A DNA stretch of 64,000 bases from Fibrobacter sp. UWR3. GTDB lineage: Bacteria > Fibrobacterota > Fibrobacteria > Fibrobacterales > Fibrobacteraceae. The position numbers and the translations under genes were made by a program. Each line of letters opens with the position of its first letter. Within the stretch, counting starts at the first letter, position 1. The stretch covers positions 1 through 64,000 of the forward strand of contig NZ_FRCW01000002.1 in the NCBI RefSeq assembly GCF_900143055.1. The letters run 5' to 3'. Positions 6,757-64,000 of this stretch are shown in pieces. The notes below the pieces were generated by a model. The model made no database searches. It worked only from the letters and a program-made list of their open reading frames with translations, and was not told where the DNA came from.

Positions 6757-6985
6757 GGCGGTGAAATCAGGATTTTTTCAGTTTTTTCACCGCCGCTTTG
6801 TTACGTTGTTCGCAAAAATTCAACTCAATGAGGATGTTTTTTTGAACATTGTGGCGGTGATTTCTCCATATTTTCTCCAATTTCACCGCCAAAGAAAGCA
6901 TTTCAGCGCAACAATTTCGCACTTTTACTACATACAAAGTAATTTTTGGCAGTGAAATCAGGATATTTTTTGCAATTTCACCGCC
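6757..6985. repeat. Three-hairpin element, copy A
   Basis: Three 38-bp palindromes at 6757-6794, 6853-6890 and 6948-6985, each bounded by GGCGGTGAAA (or a near match) and TTTCACCGCC, with AT-rich centres. They start 96 and 95 bp apart. The spacers share islands with the copy at 48506, such as TTTTGTTA after the first hairpin and ACATACAAA before the third. No coding potential was found. Confidence 0.85.
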
Positions 6986-7000
6986 ACTTTTGCAATTTAG

Positions 7001-7484
7001 AGGTTTCAATGCCCGAGACGACGAACGAGCGGTATCACTGTGAGCCGGAGGCGACTCGTATTGACGAGTCGTCGAAGGCGAGAGCGAGCGAGGTGCCGGA
7101 GGTTTCAATGCCCGAGACGTCGAGCGAGCGGTCTTACTGTGAGCCGTAGGCGACTCGTATTGACGAGTCGTCGAAGGCGAGAGCGAGTGAGGAACCGGAG
7201 GTTTCAATACCCGAGACGACGAACGAGCGGTATCACTGTGAGCCGGAGGCGACTCGTATTGACGAGTCGTCGAAGGCGAGAGCGAGCGAGGTGCCGGAGG
7301 TTTCAATGCCCGAGACGTCGAGCGAGCGGTATCACTGTGAGCCGGGGGCGACTCGTATTGACGAGTCGTCGAAGGCGACCTTTGGACACTTGCGCTTTAG
7401 CGCTTAGTGTACATGGCCACCTTTAGGTGGGAGCGAGCGAGGTGCCGGAGGTTTAAATGCCCGAGACGTCGAGCGAGCGGTCTC
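7001..7484. repeat. 99-bp tandem repeat array
   Basis: Units begin (AGGTTTCAAT) at 7001, 7100, 7199 and 7298, exactly 99 bp apart. A fifth, partial unit begins at 7449 after a 52-bp insert at 7379-7430. Each unit contains the stem CGACTCGT/ACGAGTCG with an ATTG loop. Because 99 is divisible by three, long frames stay open on both strands, but there is no ribosome-binding site or codon bias, so I treat it as non-coding. A diverged relative sits inside hrpB at about 9914-9984. Confidence 0.85.
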
Positions 7485-8832
7485 ATCTACTACGCCAACG
7501 AGATGAAGTCACCTTGTCGAACAGCCCGAAGTAAAACACCGGTTCTCCCCTGTCGGGGCTGTACCCTACCTCGAAGCGAATGCGGTCAAGCGCCGGAATC
7601 ACGAGATGCACTCCGCCATAGACGGCACCCTCGTAGTTATCCCAGCCGGGGCGGCCCTTGTCCCAGAGCAGGCTCCCGTCGAAGCCCGCCACAAGTTGCA
7701 CACCGTAGAAGAAGTTCACACCCATCACGCTTGCGGCCCGGCGCTCCAGCAGTACAAAGCGCTCCTCGAGCGTGAGCAGAGCCTCGTGGGTCCCGAGAGA
7801 GCCCGAGTCGGCCTCGTGCCCGCGAAACGTATTGGCTCCGCCATGGTAGTAATAGTCGTAAAATTTCACGTCTCCCGGGCGGTAACGCACAAGCGCCGTC
7901 GCACCCGTCACAAATCGCCCGAAGGTCTTGTAGGCGCGCGCATCGGTCAGGAGTTCCCAGTAGTTTTCGCCATTATCCGTGTTGCAAAAACGCGATTCCG
8001 TTTCGACCGGTTCGTCCGATTCGATATTGGCGCCGCACGCAACATATTCTTCACCCGCGCCCACGTGCGTAAGCATATATTCGAAATACACGCCATCGCG
8101 CGTGTCGAGCTTGCTGTCACGATAATCGAAAGCAAAGCCAAGCCCCAATTCAGGAAGATTCGCAAAGTCCCTCAACCGACGGTAGGCGGCAGTCCCCAGC
8201 AGCGACAGGTGCGGCAAGAACTTGTATTCCAGATCCAGGTCAAGCAAGATGCTTTTTTCCTGGAAATCGCGGATGTTGTCGTAACTGTCGGTCAAGAGGA
8301 ACTCGAAGTTCCACCCGAGCGGAAGCCCGAACAGGTAGGGGGAACTCGCATAGAAGGCCGCCTCGTTCTTGTCGAAGAACGGGTCCACCGTCGTGCGGTA
8401 CTGCACCTCAAGCCGAATGTCCTCGCCCGCAACATTGATGTTCGCAAGCGCGGCTCCCAACATCAGACCATCGCGGTCGGTCTTCTTGCCCGCGGGTGCC
8501 GGAATCCAGCGGAAGATTTCCTTGAAGGAATATGTGAGTTTTACGAGACCCGGTTCGGCAGGCTCACCGGCCTTTTCGCAGGAAACGGAAACCTCGGTGA
8601 ACAGGTCGAGATCCTGCAGGCGGAGCTTTTCTGCCTCGAACTTTTCGGCAGTGAACGGTTCACCCTCACGGTTCACGAGTTCGCGCTCCACCACGCGGGG
8701 GTTCGTGTGCTTCAGGCCTTCCAGCCGGATAGACTGGACAACGGTGCCGTCGGTACAGGTAGCCTGGGCGGCAAGGCCAAGCGAAGCCAGCAGAAGCGCG
8801 AAGGCCGATATCTTTACATAATTTGTCACCAC
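7483..8832 (-). CDS. Omp85-family outer-membrane protein
   Basis: A 449-residue protein with a signal peptide (about 1-24), one POTRA-like domain (about 30-105; VQSIRLEGLKHTNPRVV) and a beta-barrel with alternating aromatic residues to the end. It matches the bacterial surface antigen (D15/BamA/TamA) superfamily but has a single POTRA, so it is not BamA itself. It probably takes part in outer-membrane protein or polypeptide transport. The start is one of two adjacent GTG codons. Omp85 barrels normally end with an aromatic residue; here FYFGLFDKV is followed by TSSRWRSR, encoded where the 99-bp repeat array begins, so the C terminus may have been extended by the repeat. Confidence 0.8.
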   Translation of the reverse strand: MVTNYVKISAFALLLASLGLAAQATCTDGTVVQSIRLEGLKHTNPRVVERELVNREGEPFTAEKFEAEKLRLQDLDLFTEVSVSCEKAGEPAEPGLVKLTYSFKEIFRWIPAPAGKKTDRDGLMLGAALANINVAGEDIRLEVQYRTTVDPFFDKNEAAFYASSPYLFGLPLGWNFEFLLTDSYDNIRDFQEKSILLDLDLEYKFLPHLSLLGTAAYRRLRDFANLPELGLGFAFDYRDSKLDTRDGVYFEYMLTHVGAGEEYVACGANIESDEPVETESRFCNTDNGENYWELLTDARAYKTFGRFVTGATALVRYRPGDVKFYDYYYHGGANTFRGHEADSGSLGTHEALLTLEERFVLLERRAASVMGVNFFYGVQLVAGFDGSLLWDKGRPGWDNYEGAVYGGVHLVIPALDRIRFEVGYSPDRGEPVFYFGLFDKVTSSRWRSR

Positions 8833-8908
8833 CTATAAAATAGAAAAAACTCGGTACCCACCGGACAGGTACGGGCTGCCAGCGCACAAGGGCTCCTGCG
8901 AAAATTTT

Positions 8909-46628: not shown

Positions 46629-48458
46629 TTAGGAATCGTCCTGGAGGCAACGAACTGAAACCCCGTTGATCTTGTTAAAGTTGTACAGGCCCGCACTCTC
46701 GTCGTCATAGTAAAAGCACATTCTGTAGGCAAAGTTGTCTTTGAACTCAACGGTACTCCAAAAGTTGGCGTAGATGCCATCGTCGCGGAAAATGCCATTG
46801 ATGTCCCTGTAGCCGACAGACAGCGCGAAAAAGCCCACGCCATCCGTACCACTGCCTTTATTGTACCAACCCGTCTGCGACTTGAGGACCTTGCCCGCTG
46901 TCAAGCCTCCACCCACTTCGGCAAACAGGGTGTTCCATTCTGCTCGTGTCGGCAAGTGCCAGCCTTCAGGGCAAATGCCCTGCACCTTTGCCGGGAGCGT
47001 ACAGATCTTGCCATAGCCGCAATCCTGCGGATTGTCTGCATCGGTCGCAAGTTTCACCGAGTCAATCGCCGCCGCCCAGGTGTAAAGGCGTCCCGCCACG
47101 GCACAATTTTCAACATTGTTATTATAGCACCAGCTGCGCTTCAACAGGCTCGGGGTCTTCGTGCTGTCGGCGTAGTTCAAGTTTTCGGCCATCCAGGTCT
47201 GCTCACCAATCTTTACGGTCTTGTAGGTTTGTCCGTCACGGGAGTCGGCCATGGTGCCGTAGGTGATGTCTGGGTTGAAGCGACATTCCTTAGGAATATC
47301 CCAGCTCCAGCCGTCTGTTCCTTCTAAAAGCGCAGAACAATTCAGTTCAACAGATGAACTGCTAGAAGCTGCCTCTCCAGCGCTGCTACTGGATTTCTCA
47401 CTATCGCTGGAAGATGAATTCGACGAATCTTCGCTACTACTAGATTCTTCAACAACGCTTATGTCAGAGGACGAAGAACTCAGAGTGACGGAAGAGGAGG
47501 ATTCGTTCTTGACGCTGGACGAAGACTCGTCATCATAGTCCTTGAGGCAACGAACCGAGAACCCGTAGTTTTTACCGTCGATGTTCAGGTCCGCAGGGTC
47601 GTAGCTGTAGTACAAGCCCATGTAATACGCGCCATTGCTATTGAACTCCGTAGAACTCCAGAAGTACGCGCCGCGGCCCTCGTAGTTGTAATACCCATAG
47701 TAGTGCCTGTAGCCAGCAGGGGGCGCCGAGAACCCGAAATCATCCGTGCCGTTGCCACTATTATACCACCCGGACATGAACTTGAGTTTTGTTCCGGCAA
47801 TCGATGAACCGCCGACTGCGTTGAACAGGGTATTCCATTCTGTTGTGTCGGGCAAATGCCAGCCGCTGGGACATACGCCACGCACTGGGTAGGTCGGCGA
47901 GCATGTCTTGTTGTATCCGCAACCCATGCCGTTTGCGCTCCACGTCCCTGCGCTGTCCATGGCTACCGCCCAGGTGTAAAGGCGACCGTACTTCTCACAA
48001 TATTCGACAGAATCGTTGTAGCAGAAACTGGAGTCCGTTTTGTAGTTGAGGTTCTCCGCCATCCATACCTGATCGCCGATCTTTACGGTCTTGTAGGTCT
48101 GGCCGTCGCGAGCGTCTTCAAAGCAGTTCTCATCTGTTTCGACATCACATGGCACCCTTGTATATTCCGAGCGGCTGCTAGACTTAGTACTGCTACTGGA
48201 CCCTTCGGCAGGCTCAGGAACCTTTGAAGAACTGCTCGACTTCGGTGTGACACTCGAAGACGAATCGTCCGAAGGACGAGTCGCGAAATCGCTGTCGTCG
48301 TCACCGCAGGCGACAAGAACAAGAAGCAGGAAAGAGATTGCCGCGGTCACTATGTTCCCTCGCAATGACATACAAGGCGAATGCCGCGACAGTCTGTTTA
48401 CAAGACTGGCATGGCTGAGCCGCCGTGTCATGCACTTGTGCAATGACATTCTAAGCAT
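46629..48458 (-). CDS. Lipoprotein with two FISUMP domains
   Basis: A 609-residue surface lipoprotein. The ATG at 48458 follows GGAGG. The N terminus is unusually long before the lipobox LVLVAC (Cys about 50); an internal ATG at MSLRGN (about 31) would give a normal signal peptide. Linker 1 is Ser-rich with a repeat-encoded VPEPAEGSSSS. FISUMP 1 spans about 105-305 (FEDARDGQTYKTVKIGDQVW to SVRCLKD), linker 2 is Ser/Glu-rich, and FISUMP 2 spans about 400-607. Both domains have CPSGWHLP/CPEGWHLP-type landmarks. A three-hairpin element lies 47 bp upstream of the start. Confidence 0.9.
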   Translation of the reverse strand: MLRMSLHKCMTRRLSHASLVNRLSRHSPCMSLRGNIVTAAISFLLLVLVACGDDDSDFATRPSDDSSSSVTPKSSSSSKVPEPAEGSSSSTKSSSRSEYTRVPCDVETDENCFEDARDGQTYKTVKIGDQVWMAENLNYKTDSSFCYNDSVEYCEKYGRLYTWAVAMDSAGTWSANGMGCGYNKTCSPTYPVRGVCPSGWHLPDTTEWNTLFNAVGGSSIAGTKLKFMSGWYNSGNGTDDFGFSAPPAGYRHYYGYYNYEGRGAYFWSSTEFNSNGAYYMGLYYSYDPADLNIDGKNYGFSVRCLKDYDDESSSSVKNESSSSVTLSSSSSDISVVEESSSSEDSSNSSSSDSEKSSSSAGEAASSSSSVELNCSALLEGTDGWSWDIPKECRFNPDITYGTMADSRDGQTYKTVKIGEQTWMAENLNYADSTKTPSLLKRSWCYNNNVENCAVAGRLYTWAAAIDSVKLATDADNPQDCGYGKICTLPAKVQGICPEGWHLPTRAEWNTLFAEVGGGLTAGKVLKSQTGWYNKGSGTDGVGFFALSVGYRDINGIFRDDGIYANFWSTVEFKDNFAYRMCFYYDDESAGLYNFNKINGVSVRCLQDDS

Positions 48459-48505: not shown

Positions 48506-48733
48506 GGCGGTGAAATCAAGATTTTTTTATCATTTTCACCGCCGTTTTGTTAGTTTATCTGCACTATTTCTCTCGTTTTTGGTCAACAAAGGCAACATGT
48601 GGCGGTGTTTTTCTTTATTTTCACCCAATTTCACCGCCAACAGAGGCATCAATCAGCGTCTATCGCTCCATTTTTATACATACAAAATAATTTTCGGCGG
48701 TGAAAACAGCAATTTTTCTTCCATTTCACCGCC
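48506..48733. repeat. Three-hairpin element, copy B
   Basis: Palindromes at 48506-48543, 48601-48638 and 48696-48733, each 38 bp and exactly 95 bp apart, bounded by GGCGGTG(AAA) and TTTCACCGCC. It lies directly upstream of the double-FISUMP gene. Confidence 0.88.
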
Positions 48734-48869: not shown

Positions 48870-49454
48870 TTATTTGGCGCGTTCGAGGTAAGAACCGTCG
48901 CGGGTATCCACGCGGATCTTGGTGTTGTTCTCGATGAACAGCGGGATCATCACCTTGGCGCCAGTTTCGAGAGTGGCTTCACGCATCACGTTACCGCTGG
49001 TGTTGCCCTGCACTGCCGGAGGAGCTTCCACGATCATCAGGTCGACAAAGGTCGGCGGGATGACTTCGATGGGGAGCGTAGACCCCGTCTTCGGGTCCTT
49101 CCACCACGTGACCTCGACGGTAGCACCGTCAAGCAGCCACACTTCGCAGCCGTTGAGGGCTTCCTTCGCGATTTCCATGGTTTCCTGAGTGGTATTGTCG
49201 AGGAAGTACCAGGTGGAACCGTCGTTGTAGAGGTAAGTCATTTCGGTGTAGGTCACGTCGGCTTCTTCGACAGTGTCGCCGCTCTTCCAAGTACGTTCGA
49301 GAGTACGACCAGTAACCAGGTTCTTGATGCGAACGCGGTTGAATGCCTGGCCCTTGCCCGGCTTCACGAACTGGTTCTCGATGATTTCGTACGGCTGACC
49401 GTCAACCATGATCTTGAGTTTCTTGCGGAATTCGTTGGTGCTTACAGTACCCAT
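48870..49454 (-). CDS. efp: Elongation factor P
   Basis: A 194-residue translation factor that relieves stalling at polyproline. Three beta-barrel domains are recognisable. The modification loop has Lys in KPGKGQAF (about 34), the residue that is beta-lysylated in bacteria using EpmA/EpmB. The divergent neighbour is an EpmB-like enzyme, supporting that chemistry. AGAGGAT precedes the ATG. The C-terminal signature IPLFIENNTKIRVDTRDGSY is typical. Confidence 0.97.
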   Translation of the reverse strand: MGTVSTNEFRKKLKIMVDGQPYEIIENQFVKPGKGQAFNRVRIKNLVTGRTLERTWKSGDTVEEADVTYTEMTYLYNDGSTWYFLDNTTQETMEIAKEALNGCEVWLLDGATVEVTWWKDPKTGSTLPIEVIPPTFVDLMIVEAPPAVQGNTSGNVMREATLETGAKVMIPLFIENNTKIRVDTRDGSYLERAK

Positions 49455-62115: not shown

Positions 62116-63762
62116 CTAATCCTTGACGCAACGGACCGCAACCCCGAAGCTCTTAAAGTGGCTGTTCAGGTCCGCAATGTCTTTGTCGTAAAGCAAGCTC
62201 ATAAACAACGCATTGTTGGGGTCGTTTTCAGAAGAACTCCAAAAAAATGCGTTATTGCCCTCACGAAAGTGGTAATTCATATCGTAGTCCATGATGCCAG
62301 TAGAGATTGCAGAAAACCCGAAATCATCCGTGCCGTTGCCACCATCATACCAACTGGACGTAGCCTTTAATTTCAAGCCTCCAGTTGAAGAACCCCCGAC
62401 CGCCGTGAACAGGTTTTCGAATTCGGTTACACTAGGCAAGTGCCAGCCACTAGGGCAAGCGGATGACGCCGCAGCCCAAGTGTAGAGGCGACCATACATG
62501 GTACAATTGCGTTCCTCATGGTCGAAGCAAAAACTAGAGTCCGTTCTGAAGTTGAGATTCTCTGCCATCCACCACTGGTCACCAATTTTCACTGTCTTGT
62601 AAGCCTGACCATCGCGCACATCCACCAACTCGCCGTATTCGCAAGTGTCCGTGCTATCGGTTTTGCATGGAGTCGCCAAAATGACCGAACTAGACGAAGA
62701 CGGCTCCACCAGACTGCTGCTGGACTCTTCGACAGGCTCAGGGACCTTTGAGGAACTGCTTGACTGCGGGGTAACGCTAGACGAAGACTTTGAAGCATCG
62801 TCCTTGATACAACGGACCGAAACAGGATAGTCCTTACTGCCGGTAAACTTGGACATTTCCGCCTTGTCCCATTGGTTGCACAAGAACACTTCATACGCAT
62901 CAAGGCTCCTGCGCTGTACAGAACTCCAGAAATACGCGGCTTCGCCTTCGTCGTAATACCCATCGTCACCCAAAAGGCCTGCAGGGAGCGCCGAGAACCC
63001 AAAATCATCCGTGCCGCCGCCTTTTTCACCTTTGTAATCATACCAACCAGACATGGACTTGAGTTTTTTACCAGCGATTTCTCTACCGCCAACCGCGGCA
63101 AGTAAGGTTCCCCATTCCGTTGTGTCCGGCAGGTGCCAACCGTTAGGGCATATCCCGCGCACGGGATAAATCGGCGAGCAATCCTTCCCAAAACGGCCAC
63201 AACCCTTGCCGTTCGTGCTCCATGTCCCTGCACTATCCATTGCATCACCCCAAGCATAAAGGCGCCCGTACTTGACGCAATTGGGATTTCCATAACTGAA
63301 GCAATCGCTACTTCCAGTTTCGTAGTTCAAGTTCTCCGCCATCCACCACTGGTCACCAATCTTTACCGTCTTGTATTTTTTGCCATCGCGGTCGTCAGTT
63401 AATTCGCCGTATTCGCAGTTGTCTTCTGTCTCTGTTTTGCAGGGCGTTGCCAAAGTGACCGAACTGCTGCTGGATATAGTACTGCTACTGGACCCTTCGA
63501 CAGGCTCAGGGACCTTTGAGGAACTGCTCGACTGCGGTGTAACGCTGGACGAGGAACCATCTTCGCAGTCATTGCACACGCTCGATGAAGAATCGCCCGA
63601 AGGCGGGGTCGTAACATCGCTATCGTTGTCGCTACAGGCGACAAAGAATGCAGCCAAGATAAGCGAAAGTACAAGATGTATGGATCCTCGCCAGAGCCTG
63701 TCCTGAGCTTGCCGAACGGGCGAGGATGACCGCAATCCAGGATGATACCACAAATTCGTCAT
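62116..63762 (-). CDS. Lipoprotein with two FISUMP domains
   Basis: A 548-residue lipoprotein. The ATG at 63762 has AAGGAGG upstream. As in the neighbouring paralogue, residues about 6-27 (HPGLRSSSPVRQAQDRLWRG) come from a 44-bp palindrome. Here the codon matching the internal Met of the paralogue is Ile, so translation must start upstream and include the repeat. Lipobox FFVAC (Cys about 43). FISUMP 1 is at about 125-325 and FISUMP 2 at about 375-547, each joined by Ser-rich linkers containing VPEPVEGSSSS or VPEPVEESSSS. A three-hairpin element begins 66 bp upstream. Confidence 0.9.
   Translation of the reverse strand: MTNLWYHPGLRSSSPVRQAQDRLWRGSIHLVLSLILAAFFVACSDNDSDVTTPPSGDSSSSVCNDCEDGSSSSVTPQSSSSSKVPEPVEGSSSSTISSSSSVTLATPCKTETEDNCEYGELTDDRDGKKYKTVKIGDQWWMAENLNYETGSSDCFSYGNPNCVKYGRLYAWGDAMDSAGTWSTNGKGCGRFGKDCSPIYPVRGICPNGWHLPDTTEWGTLLAAVGGREIAGKKLKSMSGWYDYKGEKGGGTDDFGFSALPAGLLGDDGYYDEGEAAYFWSSVQRRSLDAYEVFLCNQWDKAEMSKFTGSKDYPVSVRCIKDDASKSSSSVTPQSSSSSKVPEPVEESSSSLVEPSSSSSVILATPCKTDSTDTCEYGELVDVRDGQAYKTVKIGDQWWMAENLNFRTDSSFCFDHEERNCTMYGRLYTWAAASSACPSGWHLPSVTEFENLFTAVGGSSTGGLKLKATSSWYDGGNGTDDFGFSAISTGIMDYDMNYHFREGNNAFFWSSSENDPNNALFMSLLYDKDIADLNSHFKSFGVAVRCVKD
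63684..63727. repeat. Palindromic repeat inside signal-peptide coding region 2
   Basis: ATCCTCGCC (63684-63692) and GGCGAGGAT (63719-63727) with the same core as 62029-62072, one base different (A for G near the left arm). Confidence 0.8.
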
Positions 63763-63828
63763 ATTTCCTCCTTTTTCCATTATCTGCATAAAATATAAGA
63801 TATCCTTTTACGCTCAAAATACCGAAGT

Positions 63829-64000
63829 GGCGGTGAAATCGGAACTTTTTTGCTATTTTCACCGCCATTTTGTTAGTTTATTTGCAAACATTCGGCAAAA
63901 AATGAAGTTCTTCCGCAAATATTGGCGGTGAAATTCGCATTTTCTACCCCATTTCACCGCCGTCAACACCCTCCGCGACAAGAAAAAGATACATTTCAAT
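63829..64000. repeat. Three-hairpin element, copy C (cut by window end)
   Basis: Palindromes at 63829-63866 and 63924-63961, each 38 bp and 95 bp apart, with the same GGCGGTGAAA/TTTCACCGCC arms. A third hairpin is predicted at about 64019-64056, beyond the window. Upstream of the double-FISUMP gene at 62116-63762. Confidence 0.85.

Follow-up and report, generated by a model that had tools for sequence, protein, structure and literature searches.

Dispersed arrays of helically phased palindromes in Fibrobacter chromosomes as candidate protein-binding sites

The dependence of looping operators on the helical phase of their sites is known from work on LacR (PMC1762422), and REP, BIME and REPIN sequences with their RAYT transposase are described (PMC3116915, PMC3733652) as short extragenic palindromes in composite units. 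The elements reported here share features with both. They were followed up from a 64,000-nucleotide stretch of Fibrobacter sp. UWR3 (contig 2, 1-64000; hereafter the window) into the whole 3.55-Mb genome (20 contigs) and other genomes of the genus. Their palindrome sequence varies by family while the layout stays constant, pointing away from an RNA structure or an ordinary repeat and towards an undescribed DNA-binding system; a partial literature search found no paper describing such elements.

Anatomy and census of the family-1 elements

The preliminary description of the window had reported eight palindromes in three elements, and all eight are present. Each measures 38 bp, and the re-measured start-to-start distances are 95 or 96 bp. 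The third element is indeed cut by the window end, and its missing palindrome was found just beyond. The features are as follows.

6757..6794, plus strand: palindrome 1 of element A (family 1), arms GGCGGTGAAA-N18-TTTCACCGCC
6801..6814, plus strand: box B of element A (TTACGTTGTTCGCA), 6 bp past palindrome 1, recognised by box profile and fixed offset
6853..6890, plus strand: palindrome 2 of element A, left arm GGCGGTGATTT
6929..6942, minus strand: box B' of element A (TTACTTTGTATGTA), 5 bp ahead of palindrome 3
6948..6985, plus strand: palindrome 3 of element A, left arm GGCAGTGAAA
46629..48458, minus strand: lipoprotein gene of the FISUMP type, its start codon 48 bp away from element B (palindrome 1); the TIGR02145 domain was matched over 46638-47255 and 47538-48122
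48506..48543, plus strand: palindrome 1 of element B
48550..48563, plus strand: box B of element B (TTAGTTTATCTGCA)
48601..48638, plus strand: palindrome 2 of element B, degenerate left arm GGCGGTGTTTT
48677..48690, minus strand: box B' of element B (TTATTTTGTATGTA)
48696..48733, plus strand: palindrome 3 of element B
48870..49454, minus strand: elongation factor P gene (efp), named by sequence inspection; anchor gene for comparing the element B locus between genomes
62116..63789, minus strand: FISUMP lipoprotein gene (open reading frame with TIGR02145 matches), its start codon 40 bp away from element C (palindrome 1)
63829..63866, plus strand: palindrome 1 of element C
63873..63886, plus strand: box B of element C (TTAGTTTATTTGCA)
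63924..63961, plus strand: palindrome 2 of element C; palindrome 3 lies beyond the window at contig position 64019-64056

The order in family 1 is palindrome 1, a 6-bp gap, box B (TTANTTTRTNTGTA), palindrome 2, box B' (an inverted copy of box B), a 5-bp gap, palindrome 3 and ACTTTTGCATTTT, forming a non-coding unit of roughly 240 bp whose ends, palindrome plus box B, are in inverted arrangement. In almost every family-1 element, the distance between box and outer palindrome is 5-6 bp. The left arm of palindrome 2 is often imperfect, usually reading GGCGGTGATTT, and palindrome 3 of the first copy carries one arm mismatch. The hairpin centres vary in sequence, as had been noted, yet the 18-bp centre retains a T-run at positions 18-22 (about 75-100% T) that is always on the same strand. 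Across 21-23 family-1 elements, the arms of palindromes 1 and 3 are near-invariant and the positions of centres and spacers mostly variable; one palindrome per locus was ascertained through an exact arm match, and the fair measure of conservation is the remaining palindromes.

Whole-genome searching with the pattern GGCGGTGA-N16..24-TCACCGCC recovered 19 palindromes (21 when arm mismatches were permitted), and the reversed control pattern recovered none. Six exact matches in the real window compare with none after dinucleotide shuffling. As the preliminary description had anticipated, the grouped triplets recur: the genome holds seven complete three-palindrome elements with GGCGGTGAAA-N18-TTTCACCGCC arms, on contig 2 (6757, 48506, 63829 and 229704), contig 4 (408212, minus strand), contig 7 (166072) and contig 8 (111576, minus strand), as well as one solitary palindrome (contig 9, 41617), where chance would give zero. 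The same arms were also found in several other Fibrobacter assemblies.

Helical phase, arm families and half-sites

The spacings of the palindromes follow the pitch of the double helix. For each family group, only distinct spacing classes were counted, which keeps a spacing shared by descent from entering more than once, and periods from 5 to 20 bp were tried. The 16 distinct classes, from 62 to 179 bp, fit best to a period of 10.45 bp (R=0.905), and none of 20,000 random sets reached an equal fit in the 10-11 bp range. Fifteen of them fall within about 1 bp of a common phase, the exception being a 108-bp class from a single locus, 2.5 bp away. The earlier proposal of selection on a multi-site structure, with 95 bp corresponding to nine turns, is thereby strongly supported, as spacings other than 95 bp (62-64, 74, 85, 105-106, 115-116, 136.5, 168 and 179 bp) are also near whole turns. 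Where palindrome 2 is displaced, it moves by whole turns (85+115, 116+74, 105+74), and box B keeps phase as well, lying in family 2 either 5-6 or 29-31 bp after the palindrome, two turns apart. Because the 10.45-bp period is common to the spacing classes, the palindromes lie on one face of B-DNA. Such phasing obeys the geometry of double-stranded DNA, and no other single finding argues as strongly against an RNA.

An arm-agnostic scan, accepting any two similar-armed palindromes 50-215 bp apart whatever the arm sequence, revealed at least four more arm families with the same layout in this genome (GGGCRTATAAA, GGCAGACYAAA, TGGGTACCAAA and TAGGACTAAA), and returned zero arrays from 137 kb of shuffled and 400 kb of block-shuffled DNA. 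All five families share an inner AAA/TTT, and the palindromes measure 38-42 bp with an 18-bp centre. Family 2, (G)GGGCRTATAAA-N18-TTTATAYGCCC(C), was first seen downstream of efp in two other genomes (G029, G033) when this region was compared among 30 genomes; it occurs in 13 of 80 genomes and is represented here by four palindromes on contig 4 (7772-8062). Family 3 (GGCAGACYAAA) lies on contigs 7, 8 and 3 of this genome, family 4 (TGGGTACCAAA) on contig 8, and family 6 (TAGGACTAAA) on contigs 2, 4 and 5. A two-palindrome array in RUG14562 (L051) with ACGAAAT/ATTTCGT arms may be another family. Box B was read in families 1, 2, 3, 4 and 6, if not in every array; in family 2 the box has a single orientation with 2-4 palindromes. 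Evenly spaced samples of this genome, 400 kb together, contained four arrays, which suggests by extrapolation a total of about 35, and some Fibrobacter chromosomes carry dozens of these small intergenic elements with two to five palindromes each. Two arrays have grown by tandem duplication, one of family 3 with five palindromes at 85 bp (L021, 14671-15047) and one of family 6 with three repeats of a roughly 200-bp unit (L167, 15069-15572).

The two arms of a palindrome vary almost separately. At the variable arm base of family 2 (G or A), 29 of 68 distinct palindromes are asymmetric versus 32 expected, which is near independence overall; on the box-B strand, symmetric pairs are in mild excess (38/55), with true A-C mismatches in 6/55. 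The corresponding base in family 3 is asymmetric in most palindromes seen. Such asymmetry would match two protein half-sites, unlike a stem selected for pairing. A structured leader or small RNA with three hairpins, the former among the readings first proposed, is very unlikely. Predicted folding is strong on both strands (z = -7.5 and -6.1), though palindromes guarantee that, and FISUMP genes start 40-94 bp from elements at several loci. Set against this are the 10.45-bp phase, the near-independent arms of family 2, the degenerate left arms of palindrome 2 and the location of some elements between convergent genes; no Rfam family matched at either of two thresholds, and the alignments contain almost no compensatory changes in stems, the family-1 arms being nearly invariant.

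Gene context and distribution among genomes

All elements examined lie outside long open reading frames. Their neighbours, named by inspecting translations, include FISUMP lipoproteins, gmk, tmk/secA, polA, dnaG, mutS, ahcY and purA; several elements sit between convergent genes, and a same-facing downstream gene start is not present at all loci. Two of the three window copies begin 40-48 bp from a FISUMP start codon, as had been noted, and FISUMP genes start 40-94 bp from elements at some five distinct loci. The proposed link stands for three of the seven complete family-1 elements and for several family-2 loci, but the majority of elements lie elsewhere. Among roughly 100 FISUMP genes (141 TIGR02145 domain matches, with two or three in many genes), most have no element in the regions examined. 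FISUMP adjacency is real but not general, and a general role as FISUMP operator was rejected. At FISUMP-adjacent loci, family-2 box B is directed at the FISUMP gene, elsewhere towards a gene 3' end. A general promoter function of box B was also rejected, since box-B-like sites upstream of other genes show no strand enrichment, as was a role as replication-strand marker, the orientation against GC skew being only mildly biased (about 11 to 5 loci). Two of the FISUMP domain matches contain an in-frame stop. Separately, window positions 7020-7470 hold a non-coding repeat of roughly 120 bp (GACGACGAACGAGCGGTATCACTGTGAGCCGGAGGCGACTCGTATTGACGAGTCGTCGAAGGCGAGAGCGAGCGAGG) in near-identical tandem copies; pieces resembling it recur between genes elsewhere in this genome and in further Fibrobacter genomes (for example L023 near 8200-8900, and downstream of efp in L065, L066 and L069).

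The distribution is patchy. Related Fibrobacter genomes carry from 1 to about 12 family-1 elements and many others none; family-1 arms occur in the Fibrobacter assemblies RUG14562, RUG10790, RUG12208, RUG11683, RGIG5926, RGIG10017 and UBA4375, and in only a few of the searchable genomes of the genus. Genomes with arrays include G000, G006, G018, G029, G033 and G097. The paralogous elements of the metagenome-assembled genome RUG14562 (G097) were not treated as independent, since that assembly resembles a mixture of strains. Matches in Desulfovibrio, Clostridium, G050 and G057 are single palindromes and look like chance. The arm-agnostic scan found zero arrays in 380 kb from two other genomes (G081 and G005), which suggests that the elements are not essential to the genus. 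A viral or plasmid origin was rejected: viral contigs lack the arm pattern, and BLASTN with element B matched nothing in plasmids.

Some element loci are common to more than one species, and the same locus can carry different families. At efp and dnaG, family 1 in this genome stands opposite family 2 in G029/G033 and G069, and a glycosyltransferase neighbourhood has family 1 here versus family 2 in G029 and G091. The interiors of the efp elements of different families have no obvious homology; such differences may reflect either sequence change in place or separate insertion at favoured sites. Intergenic alleles at efp and secA-tmk are replaced across genomes rather than being clean empty sites. 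The secA-tmk gap is a hot spot of intergenic turnover, filled in different genomes (L234, L235, L249) by terminator hairpins, AACCACTAACCACT-type direct repeats or a family-1 element. At a DksA-like/serine-hydrolase locus, one genome has a single palindrome (L055) where its relative has three (L048), the outer flank of palindrome 1 being fused straight to palindrome 3. In RUG10790, the left flank of one locus runs, at palindrome 1, into an element interior resembling that of a second locus (L043, L035, L051), a rearrangement or conversion with its breakpoint within the element. At polA, flanks and arms are near-identical between L040 (2109-2146) and L056 (2035-2072), and the 18-bp centre of palindrome 3 is wholly different, as if exchanged as a block.

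A proposed binding-site array, its rivals and known systems

The elements act as duplex DNA, and we consider it somewhat more probable than an even chance that each is a cooperative DNA-binding array, a candidate looped complex formed by family-specific palindrome-binding proteins. We propose the following hypothetical scheme in which (i) a dimeric or higher-order protein would recognise the outer 6-8 bp of each arm together with the common inner AAA/TTT, as two half-sites about 28 bp apart across the centre, which in family 1 holds the T-run; (ii) two to five sites at whole-turn distances would place the bound proteins on one side of the helix, where they could join in a looped or wrapped nucleoprotein complex; (iii) box B (TTANTTTRTNTGTA) would be a second, constant site in phase with the palindromes, probably the target of a partner that most families share; (iv) the arm families would represent different binding specificities, probably of paralogous proteins; and (v) copying would have carried the roughly 240-bp unit through chromosomes, with arms, box and phase kept by strong selection. 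Binding of this kind might affect neighbouring transcription or local chromosome structure. The sequences themselves show the sites with their phase and conservation, the arm families, the constant box, the patchy occurrence and the family differences at shared loci, whereas binding, cooperativity, looping and any effect are inferred. The scheme is favoured by the 10.45-bp spacing, the whole-turn shifts of palindrome 2, the near-invariant arms, the constant box offset, the near-independent arms of family 2, the recovery of families with the same geometry by a scan blind to arm sequence, and the position of the elements examined outside long genes. Counting against it are the boxes not directed at a gene start and the excess of pairing-compatible arms on the box-B strand. 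The binding protein was not found: the TIGR02147 helix-turn-helix paralogs (29 matches in this genome), rejected as linked regulators, have an array in the fetched flanks at only one of 29 loci. Gene contexts are mixed and often convergent, so the loci cannot all be explained by a simple promoter-operator role.

The most serious rival is a MITE-like, non-autonomous element, in which palindromes and box B would be the binding sites of a trans-acting transposase or recombinase responsible for copying the unit, the arm families being separate mobile families without host function. Whole elements from unrelated loci align at about 70% (BLASTN); spacer interiors have weak but significant identity (0.34 and 0.32 versus 0.26 shuffled), flanks hardly any (left 0.27 versus 0.26, right 0.28 versus 0.25), so the unit was likely copied between sites. 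The inverted family-1 ends, several families per genome, patchy presence down to none in the 380 kb of two other genomes, the one-palindrome derivative and the breakpoint at palindrome 1 are likewise consistent with mobility. Neither a target-site duplication nor an autonomous copy with the same ends was found, the latter in fetched loci, viral contigs and plasmids; the secA-tmk alleles are replaced, family 2 has no fixed ends, and arms and phase are retained in nearly every copy, even at species-shared loci, whereas dead copies would not retain them. We regard this reading as possible but doubtful; it is compatible with the binding array, since an element that arose by mobility and was later used by the host would look no different. 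Mobilisation of REP/BIME/REPIN elements by a Y1 (RAYT) transposase is already contradicted and barely credible. The dispersed, extragenic and genome-specific palindromes fit the earlier label 'REP-like', but membership fails: Y1_Tnp (PF01797), which does match in other Fibrobacter genomes, has no match in this genome (G000) or in the element-rich G097 and G006, palindrome flanks carry no GTAG or CGTC tag, and geometry and phase are unlike those of REPs. Chromosome-organising or segregation sites (parS-, matS- or SMC-loading-like) with dedicated proteins and no direct role in expression would explain several strongly conserved, dispersed, mostly intergenic copies per chromosome that are indifferent to gene direction; multiple families within a single genome, patchiness across the genus and the mild skew bias make them improbable.

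The spacing rule gives a concrete prediction, on 5-bp against 10-bp insertions, about a system not yet characterised, in a phylum where genetic tools are scarce. The different arm families on one layout within a genome, together with the family differences at shared loci of related genomes, offer a natural experiment on how DNA-binding specificity and dispersed sites change together. More tentatively, a new chromosomal nucleoprotein system is conceivable, though we would not expect it: paralogous palindrome-specific proteins would each have genome-wide phased arrays and share a box B partner, positions would be fixed while the recognition sequence switches between genomes, and the address sequences at dispersed loci would thereby evolve in concert. 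Should the protein be found, the arrays could explain the regulation of some FISUMP surface lipoproteins in rumen cellulose degraders.

Compared with REP/BIME/REPIN sequences, the Fibrobacter elements are alike in their several copies per genome, genome- or clade-specific sequence and grouping in units. In contrast to them, they have palindromes of 38-42 bp around an 18-bp centre, set at fixed whole-turn distances, a constant box B, several arm families per genome and no Y1 transposase in the element-rich genomes tested. Like bacterial MITEs, they are roughly 240-bp non-coding units, copy-spread and patchy, with inverted ends in family 1; they differ in lacking a detected target-site duplication or autonomous partner, in retaining arms, phase and box in old copies, and in that other families have two to five palindromes and no fixed ends. 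Resolvase res sites, with three dimer sites, also combine three palindromic sites in a compact element, whereas the Fibrobacter elements have 2-5 sites at equal whole-turn spacing scattered chromosome-wide, and no recombinase gene was recognised beside them in the gene contexts read. The multi-operator looping arrays of the lac, gal and ara type are likewise built of palindromic protein sites, and their effect varies with the helical phase of those sites. Unlike those arrays, the Fibrobacter elements occur at dozens of dispersed loci, often between convergent genes and outside any single regulon, and combine several specificities on one layout with one common extra box.
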